Source of the DNA: Saccharopolyspora ipomoeae
GTDB taxonomy: Bacteria > Actinomycetota > Actinomycetes > Mycobacteriales > Pseudonocardiaceae
NCBI RefSeq assembly: GCF_029952525.1
Contig: NZ_JASAOF010000016.1
Span: forward strand, 62,001-126,000
Direction: 5' to 3'
Length of the DNA stretch: 64,000 bases
Below are positions 4,278 through 51,780 of the stretch, in pieces. Under the pieces are notes generated by a model that saw only the letters and a program-made list of their open reading frames with translations, had not been told where the DNA came from and did no database searches. The number at the start of each line of letters is the position of its first letter. The first letter of the stretch is position 1. The translations under genes were made by a program, and so were the position numbers.

Positions 4278-4301
4278 GAACGAGGCCCGGAAATTGGAAA
4301 G

Positions 4302-4344
4302 CCCCGCGATGCTGCCAGGTCGGGGGTCCGACAGCACCGCGGGG
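4302..4344 (+). terminator. Stem-loop downstream of the phosphotransferase
   Basis: CCCCGCGATGCTG (4302-4314) pairs with CAGCACCGCGGGG (4332-4344), 12 of 13 positions, around a 17-nt loop. There is no U-tract, so this is a hairpin that may stop or stabilise the upstream transcript. The rest of 4345-4571 shows nothing codable. Confidence 0.45.
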
Positions 4345-4571
4345 TCATCAGGAATATCGACACCCACCCAGCGTTCGTTACACACGTCCCGCAGTGTGTC
4401 TTAGGTCACTTCGAATCACCTGTACCGGCGACCCTTCGCGGCCGCACCCCCACGACCCGTGTCGATCTCACCGCCCCTGCCGACATCCCGCATCGCCCCG
4501 TATACCCGGTTCTAGATCTTGCGCTATACACCGGTAGAGAGCGGAATCGAGCGGTAGCGGGTCGGGGCAGT

Positions 4572-48137: not shown

Positions 48138-51023
<2,886 letters not shown>

Positions 51024-51100
51024 GTCGTTTGCGTCCTTCCCTGCTCCGCCGGAACGCGCGCGTTCGTGCGCCCTAGTGTGCCGCCCCCGGAAAACGGAAA

Positions 51101-51131
51101 ACCCCCCAGCCCTGCTCGGGCATGAGGGGTC
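51101..51131 (-). terminator. Leader terminator of the leuS attenuator
   Basis: On the minus strand, GACCCCTCATGCCC and GGGCTGGGGGGT form a stem around GAGCA and are followed at once by TTTT (complement of 51097-51100) and a second T-run. It lies between the leader peptide and leuS, about 75 bp before the leuS ATG, where a constitutive terminator would make no sense. Confidence 0.7.
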
Positions 51132-51132
51132 G

Positions 51133-51164
51133 CCGCGCTGAACCGTCTCATCGGCTCAACGCGG
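51133..51164 (-). promoter_or_regulatory. Leader stem-loop of the leuS attenuator
   Basis: CCGCGTTGAGCCG (complement of 51152-51164) pairs with CGGTTCAGCGCGG (complement of 51133-51145), 13 pairs counting wobbles, around ATGAGA. The 5' arm contains the stop codon of the leader peptide, so a ribosome moving to the stop, or stalled a few codons earlier, changes whether it forms. The loop ATGAG is complementary to CTCAT in the terminator stem. Confidence 0.6.
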
Positions 51165-51191
51165 CCTCGCAAGAAGCAGCTGCGCGTTCAT
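51156..51191 (-). CDS. leuS leader peptide, MNAQLLLARPR
   Basis: An 11-residue open frame (ATG at 51191, TGA at 51156-51158) has three consecutive leucine codons, CTG CTT CTT; CTT is rare in DNA this GC-rich. No ribosome site precedes it, but a -10-like TACTCT (51198-51203, minus strand) ends seven bases before the ATG, so the transcript may start at the ATG and be translated leaderless. Peptide, overlapping stem and terminator are arranged as in ribosome-mediated attenuation: uncharged tRNA-Leu would stall the ribosome on the Leu codons and change folding downstream. Confidence 0.7.
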   Translation of the reverse strand: MNAQLLLARPR

Positions 51192-51197
51192 GGGTCC

Positions 51198-51203
51198 AGA
51201 GTA
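51198..51203 (-). promoter_or_regulatory. -10 element of the leuS transcript
   Basis: TACTCT on the minus strand, 7 bp upstream of the leader-peptide ATG. No strong -35 is seen, which is normal in this group. It predicts a start at about 51191. Confidence 0.5.
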
Positions 51204-51301
51204 GCGGACCAGGCAAAACGGTTTCCGCTCGGCGTGTGGGACAGCGCACCCGGAGCCGGTGTCCGGCCGATCTCCGCCGGGCGGAGGTTTAGGCTGCGGG
51301 G

Positions 51302-51703
51302 GTGCTCGCTGTTCAGGTGATCCTTTGCGCGGTTCTGATCCTCGGCGGAGCGGCCCTGCTGCTGCTCGGGTTCCGGGGCCTTCGGGGTTCGCTGCCCCTC
51401 AACACCTACGTCGGCGTGCGGACACCCGCCGCGATGCGCAGCGAGGAGGCCTTCGAGCTCGCCAACCGGGCCGCCGGTCCGGCGCTGCTGGCCGGCGGCG
51501 GGATCGCCGTGCTGGCCGGGGCGTCGCTGCCCGCGCTGGCGAGCGGCTTCAGCGTCGGGATGGTCGCGGTGCTCGGCCTCGTCGGCGCCTTCGCCCTGAT
51601 GACCGTCGGCGGGGTTGTGGGCAACCGGGCCGCGGAGACGGTCCCGGCACCCGCTCCGGCCGGTGGCTGTGGAGGCTGCGCGGGCGGCTGCTGCAGCGCC
51701 TGA
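51302..51703 (+). CDS. SdpI-like membrane protein with cysteine-rich tail
   Basis: 133 residues from GTG 51302. Three membrane segments (VQVILCAVLILGGAALLLLG; PALLAGGGIAVLAGASLPAL; VGMVAVLGLVGAFALMTVGG). Between the first two lies LNTYVGVRTPAAMRSEEAFE, the conserved cytoplasmic motif of the SdpI/YhfL family, whose B. subtilis founder gives immunity to the SdpC toxin; most members have no known role. The C-terminus is unusual: GGCGGCAGGCCSA, four cysteines in 12 residues, which could bind metal. A TAGGCT (-10-like) ends six bases before the GTG, so it is probably leaderless. Confidence 0.82.
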   Translation: MLAVQVILCAVLILGGAALLLLGFRGLRGSLPLNTYVGVRTPAAMRSEEAFELANRAAGPALLAGGGIAVLAGASLPALASGFSVGMVAVLGLVGAFALMTVGGVVGNRAAETVPAPAPAGGCGGCAGGCCSA

Positions 51704-51780
51704 CCAGCGCGAACGCACTTCTCCCCAAGTTCTCCACAGGCAGTTCTCCACAGGCTGTGGAGAACTAGAGGCGCGTCAAC

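Follow-up and report, generated by a model that had tools for sequence, protein, structure and literature searches.

The leucyl-tRNA synthetase gene leuS of Saccharopolyspora ipomoeae is directly preceded by a short leader that contains a run of Leu codons, a hairpin, and an intrinsic terminator. The locus raises two questions: whether translation of this run gauges charged tRNA-Leu, as an initial annotation made from the DNA letters had proposed, and, if so, how a ribosome waiting on the Leu codons would keep transcription from ending before leuS. The window, that is, the whole stretch of DNA analyzed here, comprises 64,000 nucleotides of contig NZ_JASAOF010000016.1 and carries leuS and every part of its leader on the minus strand.

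Organization of the leuS leader

The gene leuS (48138..51023, ATG at 51023) encodes a protein of 961 amino acids, which was identified as a leucyl-tRNA synthetase from its match to the equivalog TIGR00396 (leuS_bact, 879 bits versus a cut-off of 548). The closest named LeuS among the best 80 homologues is that of S. flava, with 97% identity. In the direction of transcription, the leader starts with TACTCT (51198..51203), a -10-like box of the form TAnnnT, and a gap of six bases separates this box from an ATG at 51191. The ATG opens a reading frame (51156..51191; ATG AAC GCG CAG CTG CTT CTT GCG AGG CCG CGT TGA, stop codon at 51158-51156) for the peptide MNAQLLLARPR, in which CTG CTT CTT (51171..51179) form the putative control codons. 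The TGA lies in the 5' arm of a hairpin of 14 pairs, here called hairpin A (51132..51165, transcript nucleotides 27-60, loop AUGAGA), and hairpin A is followed by the intrinsic terminator hairpin of 13 pairs (51100..51131, transcript nucleotides 61-92) and the U tract UUUU at its end (51098..51101). Both hairpins are based on RNAfold and on the covariation described below. Further downstream are a G-rich segment (51080..51088), which is complementary to the Leu-codon run and may form a closing helix with it, and GGAAGGA (51034..51040), the likely Shine-Dalgarno sequence of leuS. The box, the peptide, the TGA-bearing hairpin, and the terminator with its UUUU had all been listed in the initial annotation, and each can be read directly in the sequence or in the fold. 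Its placement of the stop codon in the 5' arm of the first stem is likewise correct, but the 13 pairs that it counted in that stem are 14 according to RNAfold.

The spacing between box and ATG, together with the S. lividans peptide LeuL2, leads us to infer that the leader ATG sits at the expected +1 and that the peptide is of the leaderless type. As far as the available text of the two sources goes, leuS attenuators have been predicted in S. avermitilis and S. coelicolor (Seliverstov et al. 2005, PMC1262725), and LeuL2, MRAVRLLLSEPR, is a leaderless peptide that maps before leuS in S. lividans (PMC8079986). Because Streptomyces leuS attenuators and the leaderless LeuL2 are published, the window element is of an already described kind. 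It shares with them a leader ORF with three Leu codons, one or more hairpins, and a U-rich terminator, all before leuS, whereas its peptide is MNAQLLLARPR and its hairpin A is shorter than in Streptomyces-like sequences. The LeuL2 peptide, MRAVRLLLSEPR, is also encoded at two Streptomyces-like loci in our collection (L089 and L094), and a third (L090) encodes a peptide that differs by one residue. The initial annotation had considered it unusual that an attenuator should control an aminoacyl-tRNA synthetase and that a peptide ATG should sit at +1. Both statements were too strong: in Streptomyces, leuS and trpS are examples of synthetase genes under this mechanism, pheST is cited in PMC1262725, and the published text at hand calls seven of the eight S. 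lividans leader peptides leaderless.

A T-box, too, would make a synthetase respond to tRNA charging; it differs from the present leader in that the window contains no gathering-score match to it, and a search of the window with the Rfam covariance models placed neither a T-box nor any other family in the leader at that score. The sole gathering-level Rfam match of the window is an F6 TB sRNA (RF01791) at 4295-4351 on the minus strand (65.4 bits, cut-off 46). Opposite the leuS leader lies a divergent ORF on the plus strand (51259-51768), of which a shorter form (51302-51703) is without an NCBIfam match.

Distribution of the leader

Relatives of the locus were collected by LeuS homology. The upstream regions of the best 80 named loci listed, together with that of the window, gave a set of 81, which was searched with a rule that uses no RNA model and asks for a TAnnnT box followed at 4-9 nt by the start codon of a short ORF containing LL. 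By this rule, the leader was found in 60 of the 81 regions. The gap between box and start codon is 6-8 nt in all 60 relatives, which had been pre-chosen by a box within 4-9 nt. Counted over all the elements checked, model-found ones together with these 60 pre-chosen ones and some genomes twice, a TAnnnT box lies 4-10 nt before an ATG or GTG in 232 of 232.

The rule found nothing in 21 of the 81 regions, where diverged leaders could escape it. These loci are Rhodococcus (seven), Prescottella (one), Dietzia (three), a single Mycobacteriaceae MAG, Saccharopolyspora (L006, L009, L010, and L011), Amycolatopsis (L018, L019, L028, and L041), and Pseudonocardia dioxanivorans (L075). No leader is seen at the four Amycolatopsis loci, and a TACCAT box stands 6-7 nt before the GTG of leuS, as if leuS itself had turned leaderless. 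At L006 and L010 no leader was detected, yet a CCTTCGTG stretch is kept upstream of leuS, and this stretch may be a terminator remnant.

Larger searches were carried out with two RNA models, R1, built from 57 sequences, and R2, a broader model built from 48. The element was found with R1 in at least 33 of 396 phylum genomes and with R2 in at least 153 of 394 class genomes and at least 224 of 297 family genomes; some genomes were met more than once, and the counts are lower bounds because stricter filters were applied in the large searches. Inspection covered a subset of the positives, namely loci from three model searches and 109 stretches, most of them chosen for a wide range of families and genera. 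Among the 180 elements inspected, 173 precede leuS, a few genomes being counted twice. A LeuS search in 41 relatives gave a match in every one (41/41) and added nothing about the leader.

Putative leucine-gauging leuS leaders therefore run through much of the class of the window and extend to a second class of its phylum, and the earlier reports of leuS leaders that we found concern a few Streptomyces only. In the same phylum but outside the class of the window, three loci (L086, L087, and L096) have a very similar leader, with LLLSWPR or a similar ending and a GCCGCGCTGA arm, and their LeuS proteins are only 40-42% identical to LeuS of the window. The likeness of these leaders could reflect either a deep constraint or a transfer of the leader. 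Among the papers listed on leader peptides and attenuation in Saccharopolyspora, none deals with leuS according to its title. Lopatovskaya and colleagues reportedly published a comparative study on the attenuation of amino acid and synthetase operons in 2010, which may already cover part of the distribution given here.

Covariation and spacing

The structure test was carried out on 100 diverse sequences. In their alignment, which leans towards structure because it was fitted to the model, 97.6% of the cells of both hairpins are paired as compared to 91.6% in shuffles, and both partners vary in 12 of 16 pairs as compared to 4.8 in shuffles. When the partner is slid by 1-3 columns, pairing falls to 45-57%. 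RNAalifold recovers both helices from a MAFFT alignment of 57 sequences as well, and there 5 of 16 pairs are changed on both sides. A mutual-information scan of all column pairs placed the top five pairs, and nine of the top 11, within hairpin A or the terminator; apart from these two, the scan shows no series of neighboring pairs that would point to a third helix. Hairpin A and the terminator both covary.

The element is built to nearly fixed distances around a hairpin of free length. Hairpin A spans 21-59 nt and occurs in 27 different lengths. In model-chosen sequences, whose counts lean to the spacing of the model, the last Leu codon lies 8 nt from the first base of hairpin A in 94 of 99; in the set of 60 relatives, which was not chosen by the model and is free of this leaning, the distance is again 8 nt in 55. 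The first Leu codon precedes hairpin A by 14 nt in 74 sequences, by 11 nt in 16, and by 17 nt in eight (n = 99), and the distance from hairpin A to the CCC of the terminator is 2 nt in 82, 3 nt in 16, and 4 nt in two (n = 100). In 75 of 99 sequences the stop codon begins within hairpin A, 7 nt from its start; in 15 it begins 2 nt before the hairpin.

Control codons and downstream genes

In 58 of the 60 relatives the last Leu codon is CTT. This codon makes up 0.86% of the 1508 Leu codons in 34 mechanically chosen ORFs of the window and is therefore rare, in agreement with its first description. The seven inspected elements that do not precede leuS comprise one at a contig end (L188) and six that stand before other genes. 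The identities of these genes are best NCBIfam matches, most of which fall below full-length cut-offs because the proteins are mostly cut by the ends of the stretches. Two of the leaders precede citramalate synthase (L245 and L249), three leuA (L113, L253, and L280), and one ilvB (L282). The leader peptides of citramalate synthase, MTCATRLIIGLRVD and MNAQLIISRRVG, have ATT ATT at the control position (ATT accounts for 1.6% of the Ile codons of the window), the leuA leaders contain at least three Leu codons, and VVVL stands in the leader of ilvB. From a reading of the folds, the last control codon is 8 nt from the hairpin in L245, L249, and L282, and 9 nt in L113 and L253.

At these six loci the control codons match the downstream pathway, which suggests that the codons matter and not the RNA alone, and we consider this match the strongest comparative evidence for a role of the codons. 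The change of codons with the downstream gene would amount to a natural experiment on amino acid specificity. A literature search over mainly open-access papers returned no report on citramalate synthase attenuators.

The same observations bear on a different explanation, by which the small ORF would be mainly a leaderless entry point or encode a functional peptide, and the hairpins would be an ordinary terminator of upstream transcription. The ORF is indeed conserved and of the leaderless type, and in the four Amycolatopsis without a leader it is leuS that follows a TAnnnT box by 6-7 nt. However, the peptide varies towards its N terminus, whereas its control codons and the RNA stems are kept, and the identity of the codons tracks the downstream gene. 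In addition, a TAG stands before PR in 13 of the 60 relatives (all seven Lentzea, all four Saccharothrix, one Kutzneria, and one MAG), and the CCGCG arm is still kept in them. We regard this explanation as very improbable.

The reading that we prefer, with a probability of about 85%, is that the leader is a transcription attenuator, mediated by the ribosome, through which leuS is adjusted to the supply of charged tRNA-Leu. It agrees with the initial annotation, which had proposed an attenuator with Leu codons, a leaderless-type peptide, and a terminator before leuS and had pointed to the upstream regions of leuS in relatives. The Leu-codon frame and the covarying stems were both found in that comparison, and conservation, covariation, the Ile codons at citramalate synthase, and the S. 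lividans relative all fit. With ample charged tRNA-Leu, the ribosome would reach the stop codon, the terminator would form, and transcription would end before leuS. With scarce charged tRNA-Leu, the ribosome would wait on the Leu codons and RNA polymerase would read through. The sign of this regulation rests on analogy. The same design, fitted with other codons, would serve citramalate synthase, leuA, and ilvB in some Actinobacteria.

Search for an antiterminator

Attenuators of the E. coli type (trp, leu, his, and pheST) resemble the leuS leader in having a cognate codon run, a stop codon, a hairpin, and a terminator, and a 2:3 antiterminator is among their features. Here, in contrast, no 2:3 antiterminator was detected, and the control codons stand at a fixed distance before hairpin A. 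A classical trp-type variant of attenuation, in which part of hairpin A or its loop pairs with an arm of the terminator, is nevertheless suggested by related systems. Antiterminators are described for Streptomyces leuS leaders in the available text of PMC1262725, and that of PMC10272879 proposes an antiterminator between the P1 loop and P2 for Corynebacterium ilvB. The ilvB-II motif of the latter is alike in being an actinobacterial element with a uORF that overlaps P1 and is followed by a terminator, P2, and it differs in the gene and in the antiterminator proposed.

Our own computations gave no antiterminator, unlike the Streptomyces report. When the front edge of the ribosome is set at any point between 12 nt upstream and 30 nt downstream of the base of hairpin A, the pairing probability of the terminator stays at 0.96-0.98. 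Over 100 sequences, pairings of the inner part of hairpin A, or of its 5' or 3' arm, with the terminator arms are not better than in shuffles. Altogether, five of six candidate pairings do no better than their shuffles and one, between the Leu run and the 3' arm of the terminator, is slightly better (mean -9.1 versus -7.9, median p 0.30, 7% at p ≤ 0.05), whereas for the two true helices the same test gives p ≤ 0.05 in 99% and 81% of sequences. As an antiterminator, the pairing of the Leu run with the 3' arm was discarded because its logic is reversed: the run would be hidden under the waiting ribosome. Upstream RNA might also capture the 5' arm of the terminator while the 3' arm is still to be transcribed; this was likewise rejected, with means of 0.01-0.28 over all ribosome edges and values above 0.5 in 0-17% of sequences, which indicates no conserved antiterminator.

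The initial annotation had paired ATGAG of the first loop with CTCAT of the terminator. The complementarity exists, but 19% of shuffled inner sequences have a match of the same length. Across the 100 sequences, a 5-nt match between the inner part of hairpin A and the terminator 5' arm occurs in four, including the window, as compared to 10.9 expected, and among 12 Saccharopolyspora-group loci ATGAG is confined to the window, L002, L014, and L034. This complementarity looks like chance.

Therefore, an antiterminator exclusive with the terminator, by which a trp-type attenuator is recognized, did not emerge from computation on naked RNA; the negative result is strong, and it is not final because such energy models omit co-transcriptional folding. 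Since the top mutual-information pairs also fall in the two known hairpins, we consider a trp-type antiterminator in this leader doubtful.

The Leu run and the post-terminator segment

The G-rich segment downstream of the terminator was compared with the Leu run in the same manner. In Pseudonocardiaceae, the mean pairing energy is -14.5 versus -12.2 in shuffles and -11.7 with a reversed run (mean z -0.99, 24% of 87 sequences at p ≤ 0.05), and in 48% of the 87 no other part of the leader pairs better with the segment than the Leu run. Outside the family the mean is -10.9 versus -9.4 (mean z -0.64, 12% of 102 at p ≤ 0.05), and the segment pairs best with the Leu run in 16% of 83 other sequences and in 10% of 19 Streptomyces-like ones; related sequences in all these counts are not independent. 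The numbers are suggestive of a closing helix between the Leu run and the segment, chiefly in Pseudonocardiaceae.

Such a helix could mean that the leader acts by translational control, with the pairing affecting translation of leuS or the stability of its mRNA. The LEU element of leuA offers a model, in which a G-rich segment at the Shine-Dalgarno sequence, further downstream, is paired with the run of Leu codons, as given in the available text of PMC1262725. In the leuS leader, however, the terminator lies between the two partners and the pairing is clear in one family only. Control of leuS mainly by this route seems to us improbable.

A proposed steric block by the waiting ribosome

Within the attenuator reading, the fixed distances and the missing antiterminator leave a simple, testable question of how a waiting ribosome prevents termination. 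Because no antiterminator was found, we tentatively propose that the waiting ribosome would itself be the antiterminator and would block the terminator sterically. A ribosome covers about 12-13 nt ahead. With the first of the three Leu codons in the A site, its front would come close to the base of hairpin A, which lies 14 nt from that codon. The front edge of the waiting ribosome would thus meet that base, and the folded hairpin A would join this point to the terminator, acting as a bridge whose length may vary, set between two fixed distances of 8 nt and 2-3 nt. A ribosome at the stop codon, the front of which would extend up to 12 nt past that codon according to the available text of PMC4833913, would have opened hairpin A and would leave roughly 13 nt of loose RNA in the window, so that the terminator could fold. 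It should be noted that, once the ribosome stands on the last Leu codon, four or five pairs at the start of hairpin A would already be open, a loss that the simple steric picture must tolerate.

RNA polymerase is known to pause at the motif G-10 Y-1 G+1. At hairpin A, the motif is present in 42 of 100 sequences with the G at -10 and in 60 of 100 with the G at -10 or -11; a YG lies within pause range in 99 of 100, though this is likely by chance too. A pause of RNA polymerase at hairpin A is a lead to follow. In the loop or bulge of the terminator, column 140 of alignment A5 is a G in 90 of 100 sequences, often unpaired, and column 139 is T or C in 94. This conserved G is perhaps a pause site.
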